A stretch of DNA of 28,972 nt. It comes from Saccoglossus kowalevskii. Taxonomy: Eukaryota > Hemichordata > Enteropneusta > Harrimaniidae. A model generated the notes under the pieces. The model was given only the letters and a program-made list of their open reading frames with translations, was not told the origin of the DNA and did no database searches. Both the position numbers and the translations under genes were made by a program. Each line of letters begins with the position of its first letter. The first letter of the stretch is position 1. The stretch spans positions 27,657 through 56,628 of the forward strand of contig NW_003132363.1 in assembly GCF_000003605.2 (NCBI RefSeq). Reading direction: 5' to 3'. Shown here piece by piece: positions 631-27,057 of this stretch.

Positions 631-1020
631 CTAGTCTTGTTCCTGTACGTTCTCAATGGTAGGGGACAAGGCCGACCTGTAGCCAACGATCGCTGCGTAG
701 GACAAACCCACTTTGTCAAACAGGTGGACGAAGGAGCCTGCTACCCGGCCAATAGAGGGATGGTATGGATCAATCTCCCTTCCGCTACACCAATCAGTGT
801 ATGCTCGCAGCCTAGCAATGTAGGCTGCATTGGTGGAATCCCTGTTCGCCCTGGCCAGGACGTTGGCAGCCTGCTCAGATAAGGCTTTCGTATGTGCGGG
901 TCTAATGACAGTCTCTATGCGTGTAAGTGATACCCGCTGGGCTCGTTGGTAGTGCACCGTCTCGCTGGGACGGCAGGTCTGGTAAGTCCCGAAGCACACT
1001 ATTGGTGTTTCGTCTAGCAT
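631..1020 (-). pseudogene. DIRS tyrosine recombinase (YR integrase), N-terminal core-binding part only
   Basis: The 129-residue frame contains a typical DIRS recombinase N-terminal domain. A helix with S-T-N-A-A-Y is followed by R-A-Y-T-D-W-C, G-R-E-I-D-P, a stretch of the form I-G-R-V-A-G-S-F-V-H-L-F and then G-Y-R-S-A-L-S-P-T-I, all familiar from this family. In the enzyme this part clamps the DNA; the catalytic domain with R, H-x-x-R and Y follows it. Here the frame stops at 631 and only about 90 bp more remain before the minisatellite, so the catalytic domain is absent and the gene cannot be functional. Family assignment is by recognition of motifs, without a database search. Confidence 0.8.
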
Positions 1021-1038
1021 TTCTGATAGAAGTGGAAA

Positions 1039-1502
1039 CTAGGCCTTGCTTGGCCAATTGAGTACGACCATTGATAATATGCAGGCGTGCAGACTGTTCC
1101 TCACCCCTGGAAGTTGGTGTGCGGTTAGCTCCACATTGTATTCCAGGCACCAAAGGAGGATTTGCTCCGCTAGGACTGACAACGATGAGGAACGCGTCCC
1201 CCCCTCTTTCTTGAAGGAGACCACCACTGCGTTGCCTGTGCGGAGCAGGACTCTGTGGTCTTGAATTACGGGTAGAAAGTGTTGTAGTGCTAAGTACACT
1301 GCTCTCAGTTCAAGCCGGTTGACATGGTAGTCCCAAAAATAATGCGGGAGCCATATCCTTGGGCTTGTTGGTCCAATAGATGCGCTCCCCAACCCTGTGG
1401 GGAGGCATCTGTTACCAGAGTCATACCTGTGGCGAGCGGGTCCAAGGGGCCCCCCTGTCCGAGGTTGGCCAGTGACGACCACCAGAGCAGGGCTTCCTTC
1501 AC
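1039..1502 (-). pseudogene. DIRS RNase H domain, frameshifted
   Basis: Two overlapping minus-strand frames together cover an RNase H. The first (1502 down to 1305) carries V-T-D-A-S-P-Q-G-W-G-A-H-L, with the first catalytic aspartate. The second (1482 down to 1039) carries N-R-L-E-L-R-A-V-Y-L-A-L, with the catalytic glutamate, then L-L-R-T-G-N, where family members have an aspartate in place of G. The switch of frame falls around 1310-1400. In an active element the domain degrades the RNA of the RNA-DNA hybrid during reverse transcription and is fused to the RT. The frameshift and the apparent D-to-G change mark it as dead. Confidence 0.78.
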
Positions 1503-1524
1503 TTGGTCCGAGATCGAAACCCGC

Positions 1525-2423
1525 CTATCTAGTTCCCATAGGAGAGCTTGGCGTTATAACAAGCGCTATACTGGGCGGCTGCGTAGTGCAGCCTAGGAAA
1601 CAACACTTTGAACTGAGGTCATCATTCCGATGATCAGCATTAGTTCTCGGAGGGACACTGAGGGAACACTGACTAGGCATTCGGCTAGGCTGCTTAGCGC
1701 TAAGCATCATGCTTGAAATAGCTAAGCCAAGCTTACCTCTGTGTCCAAACTCCATGCCCAGGGACACCAACTGCGCGTTGGGTCGAGGTGGGACTTGTCG
1801 ATTTACTAACGAGCCCAACTGGTGAAGTAAATCCTGTGTTAGCCTTACGTGTTTGGCTATTAACCCCTTGTCTGGGTTGTGTAGTAACCAGTATTCTGGG
1901 TACAAATTGAGGTGTACCGACATTTTGTGAAGCAGCAGCCTACCTGTTTCGTCACTCTGGTGAACACGTAGGGTACTGTGCATAACCCGAACGGGGGGTA
2001 CCTGAAATTCAAATACTTGGCCCAGCTGGGCGATTCGAAGGAGATGGCAACTCGCTGGGTGCATCGGTATGTGCAGGTTGACTCGCTTAAGTCTAGTGGG
2101 GCTAGCCAGTCAAAAGAATGGATGGAGAGAAGAACCCTGAATGGTGTCTCCATGTGGAACCGATCGAGGAGCACATACTGTTTCAGTCTACCTAGGTCCA
2201 GAACTGGACGCACGCCACTTGTAGATTTGGTACTACGAACACATTTGGGTAGAAGCCTGGATTTAGTTCCGGCTGATCCTACCCTGTGTATGGTGCCTTT
2301 TCCCAGCAAACTGCTACTTCCTGTCTGATTGCTTCTGCCTTGCGGGAGTCCCCTGGCAGTGCCCAACAGGGGAGACACAGACAGGGGAAATTTCAGCAGT
2401 ATCCCGTAACTGGATGTCACCAC
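1525..2423 (-). pseudogene. DIRS reverse transcriptase, frameshifted, catalytic motif eroded
   Basis: The frame from 2423 down to 1860 has the RT fingers and palm: S-G-V-R-P-V-L-D-L, then M-E-T-P-F-R-V-L-L-S-I-H and D-W-L-A-P-L-D-L. Just after this the frame shifts (near 2070) and the protein continues in the frame from 2064 down to 1525 with M-H-P-A-S-C-H-L-L-R. Where DIRS reverse transcriptases carry the paired aspartates before W-L-L, this copy reads L-Y-P-E-Y-W-L-L, so the active site is gone. The following segment (T-Q-D-L-L-H-Q-L-G) resembles the RT thumb. A DIRS RT would normally be continuous with RNase H; here the two are separated by frame changes. Confidence 0.8.
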
Positions 2424-2810
2424 CTGGAAAGGTCCAGGGATCGGTCACCCGCTGACTCCAAAACGGACTGCACTGGCACAATCTGTGTACGACAGGGATA
2501 CAATGTATGTGCCCATGGGTTCGACAGTTGCGAGGGCTGTGCTCTCTTCTCCCATGAAGTGATTCCCCAAGGCCTGAGGTAGTCACTAGGTTGTGACCTG
2601 GCCACTCGTCGAACACATGCCTGTCCCCCCCGGTAGCAGAGGTGAGCGTCAAACACGCTTACCCCGCTGCCGGAGTAGACGTCTGCTCAGGGAGGGTGAG
2701 GAGCCACCACCTGGCTTTTTCCTCCCTGGAGGCGCGCCACTACTCTTCCCTCCCATGGAGAAGGGTATGAGCGCTTGCCTCCTGGCTGACTCTGGCTAGC
2801 CGCCGACGCC

Positions 2811-4510: not shown

Positions 4511-6704
4511 AGCCGAGCGTGAGGACTTTTAACCGATTTGTTTACTGGACGCGCGATCTTGCTGTAAAGAAACGAGCAACGCGGCCATTCTCAGCGATTT
4601 TGATGACTCTGAAAGAAAAATCTCAGGCCTCAGAACTCTAGTGAAAAAAACACACGCCTTCACGGCAAAAACGCCAACCCCGCACGCAGCTACGACAAAA
4701 GTATTTTGGATGCGGGTTCTATGCTGGTAAATTCTGAATATAACCACTGCACAATCGACTCGAAACACGAGGAGCCCCAAAAAACCGGCAGCGAGCCCTG
4801 GTGCTGTCATTACAACTATTCATTTCTAAATGCCTAGATCAAGCATACAATGAAGACGACATGCATGAGGGAAGCGAATCACAGTAGGAAAGGAGACATA
4901 ACAAAACCAACAAGTGATTAAGCTACATCGCCCGGGTTTTATTTCTTTGTTGTGAAAAATACTACACAACAAATGGGAAAACGACACAAGGGTAAAAATG
5001 ACAAGGAAAACTTATCCTACCAGCTACAATGTCGGGTGCTGGGCAGCGGCAACAACCCCTGCTAGAAACCCGGACAGAAAAAAAAGCAGGCGATCCAGGC
5101 AGAGCTCGCTAGACTTGAACTCCATTCGATGCGGAGAAAAAACAGAGTGATTGGACAGCCGTCTATGGCGCCGCCATATGGGCTTGGCCACGTGGTTCAT
5201 GACGTAAGGGAAAAAGAATCTTGGGGTCATGAGGCTTCCCCTGACCTAGATTCTATCTCTCGGTCACCAGCAGAATCGCTGATTAATGCCTACAGTTCAA
5301 AATAGTTATTTTGACTGACCGGAGTCTATGGTGGGTAATTGAACGTAGTGAATTTTTCACCAACCCGACTGAATAGTTACTGTGCTGGGAACATACTTGA
5401 AATCTTGCTGAAAAGGTATTAATTTCGTTGACACAATCTTTTTTTCCATGGTCTTGAATCCAGTGTAATGTAATCTGACCAGAATGAATGATAATGATTT
5501 GGAAACAAATTGACTTAATCATGTAGCAATGCCCATTAACTCCAGATGCGGTAAAGTCAATTTCTGATGGCTGGAGAGACTATGGTTTTCATGATAACTA
5601 TATTAGTAGATTTAAATACTGTAAGCCTTTTCTGAGAAATCTGAGAAGGCATGTATTACTGCATTAGTGGCATAATGCTTGGTACTGTCTACATCAGTAA
5701 CTTAATGTAAATAATTTTACCTTATAAATTCTGATGGCATGTAAATATTATTGTAATAAAACATGCATTTTTTTTTGTGATCATTTCTGTTTCATCATTG
5801 TATTGTGGAGATCAATGGCAATGTAAATCATTTCACAATTTTAAGACATACATGTACCTAATCTGGCACATGGTGAATGAAAATTTTCTTTTGGACTAAG
5901 CGCCCACCCCTACAAAAAAAAATCAACACAATTTTGTGAGCTGATTACCCTGGGCCCTAAGTTGGACGAGTATGGTATTATGTAAAATATTTGGCGAATT
6001 AGATTGTTAAAACAATGCATTTGTCAGGTTTGGGTGTAATTTTATACTAACTAGTCTTGTTCCACTCATGATAGAGCTCCTAGAATATAACTGAATTATT
6101 AAAAAAAGCACTATGTGTACAGCATCATTAAACTTTGTCTTTATAGCTTTACAAGTGTTTTGGGAGATTGAAAATCAAGTCAATCAAAAATGTTGTCACT
6201 TCTTTTTTGTCTTGTTTCATTCTACCAACACAGTGGCGAACTGTGTCAATGACTACAAGTAAACTAACTTTATAGTGTTTTGAGAGCATGAAATTTAACA
6301 TTTAAACCCTTTTCTATATTGTATTTTCTGGACTTGCGCTCTGGTGCCATTTCGCTTGTTTACTTGTTGTTGTTCAATCCTTGGGTGGCTTGACATGTGT
6401 ATATATTGATTTTTGATTGGGCAAATGATTGGATTTGTTTCAAAATATCAAAACAGAATGTGTTGATTTATGTGAATTTATTCAGCGTCATGACAACTCG
6501 TGTCTTGGTGAGCACAATGTGTTTCATGTTGTTAATGTTCAAAATTAACTCAAGCCTTGTATCAGCTATGGTCATGATCTGATTTTGATTTGTATTTAAA
6601 TACATGTTTTTGCTTTTTAAAAACTCATCTCCCTCACCATACAGCGTAAATCTGGCAAATTTGATATATAAAATGTAAATGCTTGTACATTTCATTTGCT
6701 CTGA

Positions 6705-8979: not shown

Positions 8980-9960
8980 AATGCCTGGACCAATCACAAT
9001 CAAACTTCACACATACATCATACATGATATTATACATATGCACATCAATTTGTTTCACGATCTGATTCAAGATGGCCGAATGGCGGCCATTTTTGTGCTA
9101 AAAATCATCAAAATCAAGCATTTTTCGGCTGTTTACAGATGGATTTTGTTCAAAATTGGTATATACGTTAAACATTATAGGACCTTGATGCACATCATTT
9201 TGTTTTTCAGATAAGATTTAAAATGGCCGACTGGCGGCCATTTTTGTGCTAAAAATCCTAAAAATCAAGCATTTCCCGGCTGTTTACAGATGGATTTTGT
9301 TCAAACCTTGTATATACGTTGGACATTATAGGATCTTGATGCACATTATTTTGTTTTACGATCTGATTCAAGATGGTTGAATGGCGGCTATTTTTGTGCT
9401 AAAAAATCATAAAAATCAAGCATTTCTCGGCTGTTTACAGATGGATTTTGTTCAAACTTGATATATACATTAGACATTATGGGACCTTGATGCAAATAAT
9501 TTTGTTTTTTAGATAACATTCAAAATGGCCGACTGGCGGCTATTTTGTTTTAATGAATGGGCTTCTAGACCCATATCTCCTACTGATTATGTTTAAATTT
9601 TAAATATTCGTTATACATCATGTCATAGATAGACAGATATATTGACGATCCTATTTAAAATGGCCGAATGGTGGCTATTTTTGTGCTAAAAAATCCTCAA
9701 ATATCAAGCATTTCTTGCATTTATGAATGGATTTTGTTCAAACTGATAACATACATTAGACATTATAGGTTCCTGATGCACGTCATTTTATTTTTCAGAT
9801 TGGGAATAAAATGACTGGTGGTCATTTTGTTTTAATGAATGGGCTTCTAGAGCCATATCTCTTAAATGCTTTGACTGATTATATTCAAATTTTATATATT
9901 CGTTATACATCGTGTTATATATATACATGTATTCAAAATGGCTGATTTTGAATGCTGTTC
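8980..9960. repeat. Tandem array with a period of about 150 bp
   Basis: The landmark ATGGCCGAxTGGCGGCCATT (or a variant) starts at 9072, 9223, 9373, 9525, 9660, 9811 and 9938, giving spacings of 151, 150, 152, 135, 151 and 127. The first three to five units continue with TTTTGTGCTAAAAATC and CGGCTGTTTACAGATGG. The units at 9525 and 9811 instead continue with GTTTTAATGAATGGGCTTCT. Two unit subtypes therefore alternate at the right end. The landmark is itself a small palindrome (TGGCCGxxTGGCGGCCA). No coding capacity is supported. Confidence 0.85.
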
Positions 9961-10877: not shown

Positions 10878-13479
10878 ATGGCAGATATGCATGGAGTGCT
10901 TAATTTTCAAAATGAAGATTTGTTATTCATCCGTCGTGAAGGAAAGCAGTATGTGGTTTTTGAAGAAGTAGTTGAAAAATTCTTTCCCAAGTGTCAGTCA
11001 TCAAGATTCATATGCAATATGCTAAGTCAGATTGGAGAAACCACCAGCAAGATTACACATATAGAGGTGATGAAACTTCGCAGGAAGCTTGTTTACACTG
11101 AACATGGACGATGTTTAAATTTGCATAATAATTTGCTCAGTTTAAAGACGTTAAAACAGTGTTATGAAAAACTAACAAAAGAGTATAGTTTATCATTGAA
11201 AATGCTAGAAGATACCAACAGTTCAGCAGTGTCAACTTATGATGATTCTATTGATCAGAACCAAACCCAAATGCATACTCAGTCTGAAAAGAATGTTCAT
11301 AAGCCATTGTCTTTATTAGAACATCATCCTATTGCAACAGATACTCAAGTCTCAGGTAATGATGATGATGTTCCATCAAACAACAGAATGGAATCAGAAT
11401 CTCAGGCATCACAGCATGTATCAAATGAAGTGTCTGCAAATGTGAGAGGAACTAACTACATCTTGATTGACCATGTTCTTTTGCAAACTGTTACTCTTCT
11501 GGATGAGAAGTTCATATCAGCCAAATCAATCAAGGAGGATATTTTTCCAGTCAATTGGAAGAAAGCTGCCAGAATTATGAAAGATCTTCAAATAAAGATG
11601 TTACATCTTGTGGAAGATATGGGAAAGCATAAATGTTACTCAAAAGTAGAAAACAAGTTTATTTCAGCTGAACAGTTTGAACAGAAGTACCATTTGATAA
11701 AACAGATGTATGACCAGGAAATAGTTGAACAAGAAAATGTTCAAGATAGACATAGCTCACATATTGAGAATGATAATCAAGATGAAGGACATACACAACT
11801 AACACAAAAACCTGAAACATTGAATGGATTAACTGAGTGCTGTGAGAGTGTGTCTGATAATATCCAGGAAAATAAAGTTACAGATAGCGAAATGTCCAAT
11901 ATTAAAGCAGGATGTGAATCTGTTCATGCTGATCATGAAACAAACTCAAAAAATAACTGCACTGTTAGCTCCAGTACTGCAAATGGACTTGGCAGCTCAA
12001 TTGAATATAAAGATCATGATAACATTGATACTCCAGCATTAACACCATATGTTGCTACTACTGTTGTGAAAAATGATAAGTTGGAATGTGGTAACATACA
12101 TCATAGTAATGGTGAAAACATTAACCAGCCACTGGTAGAACTTAGGGGAGAAGAGGAATCATTGAGAAATGGTACTATTAGCCACAACAAATCTCTGAGT
12201 GAGAATTACAGTGCTGTTGATCACTTCAATGGTGGAAATTGCTCAAAGGACTATAGACTCAATGAAGGTAATGCAGATGAACGTGATGCAGCACTCTGTT
12301 CAGGAATGAATACACCTGAACCTAAGTCGGCAAATAAATGTATGTCTGTATGTTCTAGGCCAGCACTGTCATCATCATCGTCTGTCACCTCAATGTCTAA
12401 AGTTACTGGAATAAAAAATTCAAACTTAATTGATGAGACACAAACAATGTTAGTGACAGATCCAACAAAGTCTTATACTATCATTCAAGAAATATCTCAA
12501 CCACAACAATCGTTAACTAAAACTACCTCACCTGAGTCTATCATAACCTCTTTAGACAACACTACAGGTTCTCACTCCAAATTACCATTGAAAGAGCATG
12601 CATGTGACATGCATAATAGCCCTCATCAATCAAGAAAAAACAATCTTAAAAATGAGATGTCTTTCACTCAATTATCATTGGCTACCAGTGATGCATTGCC
12701 TGCCACGGAATGCATAGTTTCTAGTAATCAAAAACAAACATTGACAAAGTCCAGTAGTCAACAGACCAGCAGGCCAAGCACAAAGATTGATTGTGTTGTC
12801 TCAAGATTAAAGAACTGTGAAAAATTGCTAGTTACAAATAGTAAAGTTTCTGTTGGAATTACAGAAAAAAGCAAAAACCGGGACTGTGAACCCTCTGAAA
12901 GACGTAAACGGAAACAAACAGGAAAGGTTTTCACATTGTCAAAAAGAATTAAGTTGGAGTTTGATGAGGAAAAAGACCTTCAACATGATAAAGATGATGT
13001 AGACAAAGAACCTGATATGTCATCATCTTATCAACATTCGTGTGATGATGTATCTAGTATAAAAGATGTTTCAGAATGTGCTAGTGCTACCCGAAGTCCT
13101 CCACCTAACCCTAACCTGAAAAACAAAGTAATGGGTGTACATGCAAGCTCTACAGGACACAACAACAGGGAAAACAAACAGTCTGAACAAGAGTCTACTG
13201 TAGCTGCCAAAAATAATTCAGCAACACCATTGATTGAGCATCTTAATGCAGGTAACCAACCAAGGAAAAACAATCGCCGCAAGCAAAGCAACCCGACCTC
13301 CACAAAATGTGTGGATTTTCCCATTGTATCTTCAAAAATGATCCCCAAAAGCAGGGCCAAATATGGTTGTAGAAAATCAAAGCAGGTTGAGTTTGAAAAT
13401 GATGAAATACGTGGTGATTGCATTGCACATTCAACTGATTCTCATCAGATGAAAAACACTAAGGAATCATCTATATCCT
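10878..13479 (+). CDS. Large nuclear-type protein, exon A: duplicated Ski/Dachshund-like domain plus disordered region
   Basis: This exon encodes residues 1-867 of a predicted 1,935-residue protein that I do not recognise as a named gene. A splice acceptor (TTTCTGCACTTTCTTCTAG) ends at 10860. The ATG at 10878 has a good context (A at -3, G at +4), so 10861-10877 would be 5' UTR; the frame is also open back to the acceptor, so an upstream coding exon is possible. Residues 12-99 and 193-277 are two copies of one domain: both share E-x-x-FP (36-37 and 223-224), a following R, and a tail N-x-(L/I)-S-x-x-x-(L/F)-x-Q-x-Y. The G-K-Q near residue 22 and the final 'I/L-S ... Y' recall Ski/Sno/Dachshund domains; that link is my inference. 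The remainder is Ser/Asn/Thr-rich and probably disordered, with basic clusters at about 675-695 (R-R-K-R-K ... K-R-I-K), 796-803 and 822-835. The exon ends CCT|GTGAGT. Confidence 0.85.
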
Positions 13480-13894
13480 GTGAGTACCGTATTTTGTTTT
13501 CAAATATTGTGACATTGTAACCCTGATTCTGTGTTTGTTGGTCTTATTCTATATTACATGCTGAATCACATGATAATCAGATTGTTGAAAATGGTGATTC
13601 AAAGGGGAAATAACGTACCCAACCATAATTCTTTATAAAAAAAAAAGTCATATAGGAAAGTCCAAGAAGACAAAACAAATGATTGACAACAAACTATCCA
13701 CAAGAACAAGTCAGTACACTACAATTTATAAAAGAGTGAGCACAAATGTATACACAAACCCTTTGAATAGTAAAATTGAAAATAAATGACAATACTGTAC
13801 TTTTATTTAAAAAATATGATCTTTGCATATGTGATAATGTATACACTATTACCACCGATTGTTTATAAATTTTATATACGTTTGTCATTTACAG
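13480..13894 (+). other. Intron between the two giant exons (415 bp, phase 1)
   Basis: The donor is T|GTGAGTACC and the acceptor is TTTGTCATTTACAG|TATCA, preceded by a T-rich tract. Exon A ends with one base of a codon (T) and the next exon supplies TA, giving Leu 868 and keeping both large frames open. Unspliced, each frame would run into the intron: the upstream frame stops at 13520, and the downstream frame's nearest ATG is inside the intron at 13786. AT content and stop density rise inside it. Confidence 0.88.
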
Positions 13895-16800
13895 TATCAT
13901 CTGAATCTAATACCATATTTGTTGGTGGGTCAGTTGAAGAACAACAGGATTATACAAGAAGAAGAAAATTGAATGCATGCCAAGCTCCCCTCAGTTCAAC
14001 AAATAGTTCTCACCTATGCATCCCTGACAAACAGAATAAAAATCTACCGCAAAACATTTCAAATGAACATTCTACTCAGATTTTTAGAAATACCAGAGAT
14101 ATGAGAGACCTTAGTTCATACAACCAACGACATCCTGAGTTTAGCAGAAATGTTGAAAGCCATGAGGTAAATAATTTGCCTCCAGCTGGTGTTCCGGTGA
14201 GCAATTCTTTTCATAACATTACCACTTCACACTTGGAAAACAACATTCCCGCACAGTCTAAAAGCAGTGCTGCTTTGCTGAAACCACCTAAACCAAAGAA
14301 TTATGAAGCCCCATTGCATAATTCAGAACCTCAAAATCGTGTTGTATGCCCTATAATAAGAGAACTCCTACAGAATACAGATTATATTTCATTACCATAT
14401 GCATATAATTCAAGAGAAAAAATTATATATGGTGGTACTGGAAGATGCGAAAAAGGGAGTAATAAAAAAAAAAGAACTCAATATGCTTATAGTGACAGTC
14501 TACCCAAAAGAAGAAAGCGTAAGGTTATTGTTGATGTCAAAAAAAACACACAGAATGCATCACAGAAAAATCAATTTCGACAGCCATCTCCTTCAATGGA
14601 AAGTGTATGTCCATTAGATACAAGAATACCAGTTTCCAAGAGTGCAGAACAGAATATTGCTTTAGAGTCATTAAAAGAGTTGAACAATGACATGTCAATG
14701 GAATCTATTAGTCAGGAAAAAACTGTTAAACGACTATGCACAAGGAATGGAAGCATTCAGCAACAAGTAAATCAACAACAATGTGTGTGTACTTGTCTGC
14801 CTATGAGTAACCTCAACAACCTTGAATGCAGAAATTCTAACCCTGAATTGAATGAATGCCATCATAAACAAAATGTTTGTTTAACCAACTTCAATCTTGG
14901 ACCCGAATCAGTGGAAGACTTGCCATACAACATTTCATCTGCAAATAATCGGAATCTGCTACTACAAATCAAACCAAGGGCAATTGATGTTGCACAGAAG
15001 ATCTTCTCTGGTGATAATGGGAAACCAGTCAAATCGATTCAGAGTGACATAGGCCATACAGACAGAATGTTCAGTCCACCACTTCATTCTAATAACAGTT
15101 CCATGGTTAATAAACATAGGGAGTCATTTAAGCAAAATGATTTGACAAGTCAGCTATATCAGCAAACCATGAGTGATGTTTTGCATAATCTTGTTACCAC
15201 CAGGCAGAAAGATACTAATAAGGCACCTATGTTATTGGAAGGAGCAACAGATGTGTCATCTGCTAATTCCCAAAATGGACTTAAGATTGGTTCAGTTTAT
15301 TCTCTGTCAGGTATAATTGGCGAAAATGGAAAGCTTGTTGACACAATAGAAGCACAATCATTTCTTACAAACATGGAACCCATTGCATTCAGAAATACTG
15401 AATCATCCATCACACCAGTGTCAAATGATCCGACTATTATGCCCGCGAGTATGTGGCCTGATAATGAGAAAACTTGCACTGATGTTCCATCTGATTCTGG
15501 CCTGAAAATAGATTCTGTCTGTTCTCTCAAAGATATGAATAAATCAGTGCAGGAGGAAATTCATTGGTTAAACAATCACAACACTATGAGTAATCAATGT
15601 GAAATTTCTGTTAACGATAACGATGTCAAAACATTGATTGCACAAGAGAGAGAAAATATACCAGATGTGTGTGCAGTATATAGTGAAAAAAAACTTGTAA
15701 CTCAAGAAAAAAACTGTGCTGAAGGAATAAATCCTGGGCTGAAAATTGAATCAGTTTTTTCACTGAGTGAGATGCCTGAAGGTTCCCTGGCACTAATGAA
15801 CAGTGAAAATAATGTTAACAATTCTACTAAGATGGTAAACTCTGTTCTTTCTTCTGATTTTCATCAGTCTGATACACAGTCTGTGATTGGATTGAGTGGT
15901 GTTGAACCAGATGAAGGATTATATAGCATACCAAACAATTCAGGATTAAGAATTGACTCTGTGTGTTCTCTGTCTGGAATTCCTGAATTATCCAGTGAAG
16001 AGTTTGTAGATGTCATTAATTCAAATTATGTGACAAATATTAGGAAGTTGGGTCACACTGTTGAAACAAATCATGCAGAAAGTTCTTGCATCGATGTAGA
16101 TACTAATGGGTCATTACAAAATGGAATTGATAGTTCTACTGATTTCAGTGTTGATGTTCCCAGACCAGCATATCGTCATTCTACGTTTACTAATGATAAA
16201 TCACCTGTGAGTCCAATAAACAGACGCAACTCTTCCTCACATAATCTGGTTCATGATTGCCAGATATTGGAATTTCCTCAAAAGTCCAATATACAAAATT
16301 TAGGACTTACTACACAAATTTCCCATGCAAATGGAGTGGACATAACATCCAATAAACATATTTTACAAAGTGATAATCTTATTCAACCGGATGTTAACAA
16401 TGCTGTTTCACCCTCGCTATTGCCACCAGGTATGTGTATACCATATGTTCATGGTATGGTACCGAGCAGTGATGTGACTGGCCTAAGAACAACTTTTCAA
16501 AATGTAGCCCCAATTGCCTCCATAAACTCAGGAAAAGATGACCACCATTTTTCAATGACCCTTAGGTCAATGGCCAAGTATAATAAAGCGTCACAGATTC
16601 AACCTTCCAGGTCTTCAGAAAATTCAATCACAGCTGCAGAAACATCTGTGAAAACAAATGGTGCCTTTCAAACTAGAAGAGAACCACTTATACAGGCACA
16701 TGACACCAGCTCTCAATTCACTGCAATCACAAATACTCAAAGCATTCAGTTGTCTAGTGTATCATCAACTCCTGCTCAGAGAGTCAAAATGGTTTCATCA

Positions 16801-17077
16801 CTGCAGAGAGAAGATGTATGGGAGCCGAAATTGGTTACTGCTAAAAGAATGTTAGCAAAGAATCAACATCAGGACACAAGCAATACTAGTAGGTATGAAA
16901 ACAATCAAGATGATTCCAAAGTTGTGACAAAGAAAAAAAGTAGAGGAAGAAAGAATCTGTATTTCTCAATAAAACCACAACAATCATTAGGAATTAAGAC
17001 TCTACGTGTAACTGAAGGGAAGAAAAAAGGTGCAACATTTCATGATTTGCTTGAAGCGACAATAATTAAATGCTCTG
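13895..17077 (+). CDS. Large nuclear-type protein, exon B: disordered region with four GLKIxSVxSL motifs and basic C-terminal block
   Basis: This exon encodes residues 868-1928, continuing exon A. Most of it is Ser/Asn/Gln-rich and of low predicted order. A bipartite basic cluster (K-K-K-R at 1058, P-K-R-R-K-R-K at 1071) is a strong nuclear localisation candidate. A short motif G-L-(K/R)-I-x-S-V-(Y/C/F)-S-L appears at residues 1329, 1403, 1482 and 1551, usually followed by S-G/E-(I/M) and acidic residues; a half-copy (S-V-I-G-L-S-G) lies just before the fourth. From about 1881 to the end the composition changes to a basic, hydrophobic-patterned block (R-G-R-K-N-L-Y-F-S-I ... F-H-D-L-L-E-A-T-I) that looks folded and conserved. 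The exon ends TCTG|GTAAGT; reading on would add only 19 residues of intron. Function is unknown; I infer a nuclear scaffold or cofactor. Confidence 0.85.
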
Positions 17078-17365
17078 GTAAGTGTAGTATTCCACATGTA
17101 GAGGAATGGATATATTTTGACAGTTCAGCTCCATAATAATGCATGTTCCAAAAAGTCTGTTTGATTTTCTTTGTGGTGGCCATTAACTTGCATTATTACT
17201 CGTGTTTAACAAAGAGAATTACCGGTAGTACATTGTGGATACTAATAGTGATATTTTTCTAATACCCATTCCAATTTACCAATAAGCAGGTTGTCTAGAA
17301 ATTTAGGGTTGCATCCTCAATTGAAATACAGTTGAATAAAAATGATTTTAAAATCTTTTTTGCAG
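17078..17365 (+). other. Probable last intron (288 bp, phase 1)
   Basis: The donor GTAAGT at 17078 is a perfect consensus. The nearest good acceptor downstream is AAATCTTTTTTGCAG, ending at 17365. Joining them keeps the phase (G + AG gives Glu). The donor is strong; the acceptor choice is less certain, because another exon further right could be used instead. Confidence 0.6.
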
Positions 17366-17388
17366 AGCGTTTACAAGAAAGTCAATAG
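17366..17388 (+). CDS. Probable terminal coding exon of the large gene (7 residues and stop)
   Basis: After the TTTTTTGCAG acceptor the frame reads E-R-L-Q-E-S-Q and then TAG at 17386-17388. The charged helical run continues naturally from the preceding T-I-I-K-C-S. The exon would go on as 3' UTR. The coding part is so short that only the splice sites and phase support it. Confidence 0.5.
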
Positions 17389-23388: not shown

Positions 23389-24061
23389 TTGGGCTCAGTC
23401 TCCTCATCTTCGTCCTCCCACGCTGTAGGCTGGAGTTTGGGGAGCTCTAGTCCCGAACTTCGCTACGGACCTCAAGCAGCACACACCAGCTTGACGCAGG
23501 AGAGTTTCCGATGCTTAGACACTCGCAGTACTCCTCATTCTCCCTCTGGTCTTCTGCCGAGGGACGAGGTCAAGGCGGAGACGGTCTGGCAGGAATTAGC
23601 CAGCCTTCTGGAGAAAAGGGTGATACATCTAGTGAAGAACCCCCATTTAGTTCCAGGGTTCTATTCCTACATATTCCTCGTTTCTAAGAGTTCGGGGCTG
23701 GCGTCCTGTCCTAGACTTCAGTCGGCTGAACGGGTTTGTGAAGCTCAATCGCTTCTGGATGGAAACACCAGCTTCGGTACTTCTGTCAGTGCACTCAGGC
23801 GATTGGCTGGCGTCGCTGGATTTGAGGGATGCATATTTCCACATCCCCATTCACCACTCATGCAGTCCTTATCTCAGTGCTAAGACAGGTGACCCAGCTG
23901 CTACACCGGTTGTCAGTTTATCTGAACCCATATCTCAACGACTAGTTATTACACAACCAAGACAGGGAGGTGCTCCAGGGGTGGGGTGTCCATCTGATGA
24001 ACCTTCCAAGGGACATGACCGACCGCATATTTGGCTCTATCAATCTCTGGGAGTCACATAG
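23389..24061 (+). pseudogene. DIRS reverse transcriptase and RNase H remnant with internal deletion
   Basis: The first frame (from 23389) carries E-L-A-S-L-L-E-K-R-V-I and then F-L-V-S-K-S-S-G. After a shift near 23695 a second frame has L-N-R-F-W-M-E-T-P-A-S-V-L-L-S-V-H, D-W-L-A-S-L-D-L-R-D-A-Y-F and H-I-P-I-H, the RT fingers and first catalytic aspartate. The expected palm with the paired aspartates does not follow. Instead, within about 110 bp, another frame reads L-Q-G-W-G-V-H-L, which is an RNase H start. Roughly 150 codons of RT are therefore missing. The rest of RNase H (to about 24240) is scrambled. Confidence 0.72.
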
Positions 24062-26074: not shown

Positions 26075-27057
26075 ATTCTGTTTTTTTTGTATTTGAAAGG
26101 ACACACAGCAAAGGAGATTTTGTGATGAAATGAAAGAAACTTATGGTGATGTTTCCCCATCATATGACCTTGTAAAACGCTGGCATCTTGAATTCAAACA
26201 TGGCCGGAAGTCTGTGGAAACAGTTCCCAGACCTTTGATGAGACATCTGTCCGTCAAGTTGAGGCAGCCATTTTGGAAGATCAACACATTGCTGTTCGCC
26301 AAATAGCCCAAGAGATCAAGATTAATACAGGGTCTGTGGAAACTATCATTCATGACCATTTGCATATGCATAAAGTGTTTGCCAGATGGATTCCCAGGTT
26401 GCTCACACCTTTCCAAAAGCAAGAATGCATTGAGTGCTTGAGGATGAATTTGGAGATGAGTCAAAGTTTTTCAAAAGACTGATTACACAGGATGAAATTT
26501 GGGTCCATCACTATGATCCAGAGACCAAAGCCCAGTCAATGCAGTGGAAGCACTTATACTCACCAACTCCAAAGAAGGCAAAGGGGCAGCCCTCCGCTGA
26601 CAAAGTCATACTCACAGTCTTCTGGGACCAGGAGTAGTAGTGATGGCAAAAGGTACCACAATTACAGGAGCCTATTACGCTTCACTTTTGATGAAATTAA
26701 AAGAAGCTATCAAAATCGAGAGGTGGAGCAAGATCAGCAAAGGTATTCTCCTTCTGCAGGACAACACTACGGTCCACAACTCGCATGTCGCCAGATCAGA
26801 AGCACGGCGTGTGGCTATGAAATCCTCCCCATCCCCCTTACTCTCCTGACCTTGCACCCTCTGACTTTCATCTCTTCCCAGCCATGAAGTTGTTTTTGAA
26901 AGGAAAGCGTTTCCCAGATGACGCAGCCTAGATTTCTGAAGTTACGACATGGTTGGTGGACTAACCTGGGGTGTTCTACAAAAACGGTGTCTAGAGCTGC
27001 ATCAAACGATGGGAGAAATGCATAACTCTGGGTGGTTCCTTTGTAGAGAAAGACTAA
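26075..27057 (+). pseudogene. Mariner-family transposase, multiply frameshifted
   Basis: The pieces in order are: G-H-T-A-K-E-I-L (about 26098), then after a shift and stops K-E-T-Y-G-D-V-S-P-S-Y and K-R-W-H-L-E-F-K-H-G-R (helix-turn-helix); Q-H-I-A-V-R-Q-I-A-Q-E-I (second HTH, 26273-26482); T-Q-D-E-I-W-V-H-H-Y-D-P-E-T-K with the first catalytic Asp (26434-26637); a stop where the conserved V-L-L-I-D-Y-type stretch should be; G-T-T-I-T-G-A-Y-Y-A-S-L-L and L-L-Q-D-N-T-T-V-H with the second Asp (26640 on); after another shift S-P-D-L-A-P-S-D-F-H-L-F-P with the third Asp; and finally C-I-T-L-G-G-S-F-V-E-K-D before TAA at 27055. All three catalytic residues survive, but there are at least four frameshifts and several stops, and the start codon region is unclear. 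It would cut and paste DNA at TA sites. Confidence 0.85.

Follow-up and report, generated by a model that had tools for sequence, protein, structure and literature searches.

Four copies of a GL[KR]IxSVxSL motif, candidate docking sites in a putative nuclear scaffold of Saccoglossus kowalevskii

Disordered scaffolds that carry arrays of short motifs are a well-known kind of system. In the BRC repeats of BRCA2, which dock RAD51, short conserved words lie in a disordered region and are joined by drifting linkers. The MELT arrays of KNL1/Spc105 dock Bub3-Bub1 in the spindle checkpoint, and there the copy number and affinity of the motifs tune checkpoint output (PMC7292645). The array described here comes from the hemichordate Saccoglossus kowalevskii and was found in a stretch of 28,972 bases that forms the end of a 56,628-base contig, in a genome of 572 Mb in 4830 contigs; we refer to the whole of this stretch as the window.

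The array resembles that of KNL1/Spc105 in that a single protein, here a putative scaffold, carries a short motif several times. The two differ in the motifs themselves, as the 1947-residue protein contains no instance of M[DE][LIV][ST], [RK]V.F or [SG]ILK, and a broader RVxF pattern occurs twice (compared with 1.2 in shuffled sequences) and in none of the copies. At most, the array would work like KNL1/Spc105, and it would not be a member of that family. The likeness to the BRC repeats lies in short conserved words that are separated by drifting linkers, whereas none of the four copies contains F.[ST]A, the core of a BRC repeat, and the protein has its two FISA words at residues 212 and 261, outside the array.

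The array belongs to a single gene that spans the middle of the window on the forward strand. Its two large exons (Table 1) are predicted to join in frame, giving the 1947-residue product, and the open frame of exon A extends over 896 codons from stop to stop. Basic clusters at four places (residues 673, 796, 1070 and 1880) make it likely that the protein is a nuclear scaffold. By eye, a strong-looking GTAAGT donor is visible at 17078, within the last codons, and a downstream acceptor, TTTTTTGCAG (AG 17364-17365), could pair with it; this splice could replace the last 19 codons with an alternative C-terminus that ends at a stop at 17386-17388.

Table 1. Positions in the window of the predicted gene structure, the motif array and the basic clusters.
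Feature	Position	Strand	Remarks
Coding exon A	10878..13479	+	Start ATG at 10878; residues 1-867 and first base of codon 868; donor GT at 13480
Basic cluster SERRKRKQT	12894..12920	+	Residue 673; NLS-like, presumed localisation
Intron, GT...AG	13480..13894	+	415 nt; predicted from the sequence, in-frame join
Coding exon B	13895..17136	+	Remaining protein to residue 1947, and stop; holds the motif array
Basic cluster LPKRRKRKVI	14500..14529	+	Residue 1070; NLS-like, presumed localisation
Motif copy 1, NGLKIGSVYSLSGI	15274..15315	+	Core at residue 1329
Linkers 1-3, interrupted by copies 2 and 3	15316..15939	+	Linkers mutually dissimilar
Motif copy 2, SGLKIDSVCSLKDM	15496..15537	+	Core at residue 1403
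Motif copy 3, PGLKIESVFSLSEM	15733..15774	+	Core at residue 1482
Motif copy 4, SGLRIDSVCSLSGI	15940..15981	+	Core at residue 1551; followed by PE
Basic cluster KKKSRGRK	16930..16953	+	Residue 1880; NLS-like, presumed localisation

An initial annotation, made by reading the sequence, had placed the word GL(K/R)IxSVxSL at residues 1329, 1403, 1482 and 1551, and the regular expression GL[KR]I.SV.SL indeed matches the protein at these four positions and nowhere else in its 1947 residues. The cores start at nucleotides 15277, 15499, 15736 and 15943, with spacings of 74, 79 and 69 residues. Spacing as even as this, which was also part of that description, would arise with p = 0.005 if the outer copies were kept fixed and the inner two placed randomly (a post hoc test). 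The word is longer than first noted: the continuation SL[SK]x[MI] is common to all four copies, so that the full consensus comprises 14 residues, [NSP]GL[KR]I[DEG]SV[CYF]SL[SK][GDE][IM], and the array occupies residues 1328-1564.

The four-copy motif is real and hardly a product of chance. For a random protein of the same composition, about 2e-6 matches to the consensus are expected, a figure that refers to a consensus chosen post hoc. When each copy is scored against a model built from the others, the copies reach 37.3-43.0, compared with 11.7-15.7 for the best other site in the protein, and in a scan of all six frames of the window the copies score 44.75-49.25, compared with 19.5 for the best site outside the four. 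The top score among 2000 shuffles of the protein is 32.25. A supposed partial copy just before copy 4 (HQSDTQSVIGLSGV, residue 1524) does not withstand this kind of scoring; at 11.5 it falls below the mean best score in shuffled proteins (14.8), and we therefore attribute it to chance.

The reading of the array that we favor below, as a set of docking sites, rests on a comparison of codons between the copies. Seven residues are invariant, and with six pairs of copies these give 42 comparisons, in which the nucleotides at codon positions 1, 2 and 3 are identical in 93%, 100% and 33% of cases, respectively. The value for the third position is close to the 36% expected for random synonymous codons of this gene (simulated mean 36.3%, sd 8.4%). 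Silent change has thus reached saturation, whereas the word has been retained at the protein level. Such a combination points to ancient copies maintained by purifying selection, and not to a young DNA repeat or minisatellite. It would also illustrate how constraint on a short linear motif can be read from a single genome, by setting silent against replacement differences between the copies within one protein. Purifying selection between copies would also be expected, however, if each motif served as a structural element or as a site of modification instead of docking.

The linkers have no such shared content. No similarity was found in the three linker-linker pairs (p = 0.38-0.49), and in a wider comparison of five stretches (the three linkers and the sequence on either side of the array), the ten pairs include one with p = 0.010, formed by linker 2 and the upstream flank, while the other nine have p values of at least 0.073. 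The picture of conserved words between drifting linkers is thus borne out inside a single sequence, by the invariant residues, the random third positions and the dissimilar linkers, and the word appears to have been held by selection while the silent positions and the spacers drifted. With respect to the origin of the copies, TCN codons encode all eight core serines (p = 0.058), which is a weak hint of common descent. Taken together, the TCN serine codons and the even spacing favor an old tandem duplication of a unit of approximately 75 residues, and we infer that the copies arose in this way; convergence instead of duplication is a conceivable origin as well.

The array had further been described as lying in a disordered region, and this part of the description is weakly supported. 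The Ser/Asn-rich character of exon B stands (13% Ser and 9.5% Asn), but three of the five 60-residue blocks over residues 1321-1620 are weakly positive on the charge-hydropathy folding index (0.15, 0.03 and 0.07). Across the protein, 21 of 33 such blocks do not rise above zero on this index. Judged from its composition, the protein is probably disordered.

Within the word itself, hydrophobic residues recur at every third position (I4, V7, L10 and I/M13), which is not the pattern of an amphipathic alpha-helix. Ranked among the 13-mers of the protein in a post hoc comparison, all four copies have a low alpha-helical hydrophobic moment (7th-18th percentile) and a high period-3 moment (91st-98th percentile). 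The moment at the beta period is intermediate to high (62nd-94th percentile). Hydrophobic residues with this spacing would face the same way along a peptide in an extended or 3-10-like conformation.

The best reading of these observations, and one that we consider reasonably probable, is that the four words, in what is putatively a nuclear scaffold, act as multivalent docking sites for a single folded partner. According to this mechanism, the linker part of the duplicated unit would have drifted and purifying selection would have kept the motif, each copy of which would dock into the same groove on that partner. The docked peptide would probably be extended or turn-like, with I4, V7, L10 and I/M13 on one face. 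The array would let one molecule bind several partner molecules, or alternatively an oligomer with high avidity, and a phospho-switch may be provided by the two conserved serines (core positions 6 and 9). If true, this adds an unnamed docking motif with a built-in control, in the form of four natural copies, and short peptides could be used to fish out the partner.

A more specific proposal can be made only tentatively, and we would not be surprised if it failed in one or another part. It holds that the word is a docking motif without a name, with two invariant serines and hydrophobic residues at period 3, and that four copies of it sit in an animal nuclear scaffold, a protein covered by none of the domain libraries searched. 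The copy number would set the stoichiometry of the partner, and phosphorylation would switch the interaction, so that the logic would be MELT-like and the sequence unrelated.

The absence of a named motif with this consensus, already suspected at the outset, is borne out by 5.39 million open-access papers, which contain neither the literal copies nor the consensus forms. Seventeen patterns for known motif classes were counted in the protein and in shuffles: B56 (strict and relaxed), SUMO, NES, SIM, HP1, CK1, CK2, RVxF, EH1, SQ/TQ, SP/TP, LIR, LxxLL, beta-TrCP, ET-like and basophilic kinase. None of them accounts for all four copies above the shuffle background. Only three match each copy, and over the whole protein their counts are 49 for S-x-x-[ST] (46.8 in shuffles), 44 for [KR]-x-x-[ST] (42.0) and 6 for [VIL][KR][VIL] (7.3); the CK1-primed form S-x-x-S, also present in all four copies, is to be read against the first of these backgrounds. 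Two individual candidates were rejected. The ELM-like pattern for a CRM1 nuclear export signal occurs in none of the four copies, and the SUMOylation pattern, [hydrophobic]-K-x-[DE], occurs in two, with Arg in copy 4 and Gly in copy 1.

These counts bear on the alternative that survives best, in which the array would be a substrate for serial phosphorylation. Here a kinase would act on the first serine and a CK1-type kinase would then act on the serine three residues later (S-V-x-S), so that the protein would be a four-site phospho-counter and docking would be secondary. Both serines are invariant in the four copies and always form S-x-x-S, and [KR]-x-x-S is likewise present in every copy. The S-x-x-S match carries little weight, however, because S-x-x-[ST] is equally common in shuffles; [KR]-x-x-[ST] is no more enriched, and a kinase site alone does not account for the invariance of G, L, I, V and L. 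We regard serial phosphorylation as the principal function as rather unlikely.

An explanation that we find improbable is that the copies form or join one folded structure, such as a set of beta-arches or a repeat fold stabilized by the four hydrophobic words, instead of serving as independent docking peptides. The period-3 hydrophobicity, the even spacing and the three array blocks with weakly positive folding index would all be compatible with such a structure. The spacings nevertheless range from 69 to 79 residues and the linkers are without a common pattern, while in repeat folds a larger part of each unit is generally conserved.

A PP2A-B56 docking array, in which the C-terminal half of the extended motif would be LxxIxE, is very improbable. 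Copy 4 fits the published form [LMFI]xx[ILV]xE with LSGIPE, followed by LSSEE, and the B56 pattern is found eight times in the whole protein, compared with 3.0 in shuffles. In the published form, however, the glutamate at position 6 is obligatory and allows no substitution (PMC10970375). By that definition copies 1-3 do not fit, as copies 1 and 2 are without the glutamate and position 4 of copy 3 is Met, which leaves one of the four; in addition, GL[KR]IxSV is left unexplained. Finally, almost no credence can be given to the view that the array has no function and reflects chance or a recent DNA duplication of the minisatellite kind, because the copies, although alignable as a 38-nt DNA repeat in which copies 2-4 match copy 1 at 68-71% identity, differ at silent sites to the random level with their protein positions fixed, and because the chance expectation is so small.

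Searches for relatives of the proposed scaffold place neither the gene nor its motif in a described family. The gene is without a match above cut-off in Pfam and NCBIfam, and no significant solved relative was found in the PDB. Paralogues of the two exons in the same genome are absent among the best 2 and 3 candidates scored. Queries with the motif peptides of copies 4, 3 and 1 against the whole genome gave matches inside this gene only, in a search that is insensitive: copy 4 recovered only copy 2 of the other three (E = 2.4), and copies 3 and 1 recovered none. With exon B as the query, no relatives were found in the IMG/VR and GTDB contigs, where 5 and 28 pattern matches, respectively, yielded none that was confirmed.

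Domain candidates at the two ends of the protein were likewise rejected. For Ski_Sno_DHD (PF02437) in the N-terminal region, there is no Pfam match up to E = 5 with the frame of exon A or up to E = 10 with fragments, and comparison of residues 1-108 and 189-295 with the Ski/Sno/Dachshund homology domain by hhalign gives weak alignments only, with a probability of about 0.2% each. A RAMA domain in the C-terminal region was considered as well, and no Pfam family matches the last 118 residues up to E = 10. The Ski_Sno_DHD family belongs to animals; elsewhere in the same genome three exons match it above the family cut-off, which we take to resemble DACH, SKI and SKIDA1. No such exons were found in 14 control genomes, a result that does not bear on the restriction of the family to animals.

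The surroundings of the gene contain several features of other kinds. Upstream of the window, positions 5000-5600 of locus L003 (contig C2398) are all N, and no open frame of at least 70 codons is listed for loci L002 and L003. Retroelement-like open frames were seen by eye on either side of the gene, at 23651-24058 (+) and 631-2444 (-); the former has a weak RVT_1 match that is below cut-off (E = 0.0079), and the four frames tested at 634-2444 have none. Transposase pieces, presumably of mariner type, lie in several frames at 26097-26887, with a Transposase_1 match above cut-off at 26434-26634 (+; E = 3.4e-7) and no Pfam match for the frame at 26192-26479. The window also includes two tandem arrays, one at 1-542 with a period of 24 and about 21 copies, and one at 9038-9546 with a period of 151 and 3.4 copies.
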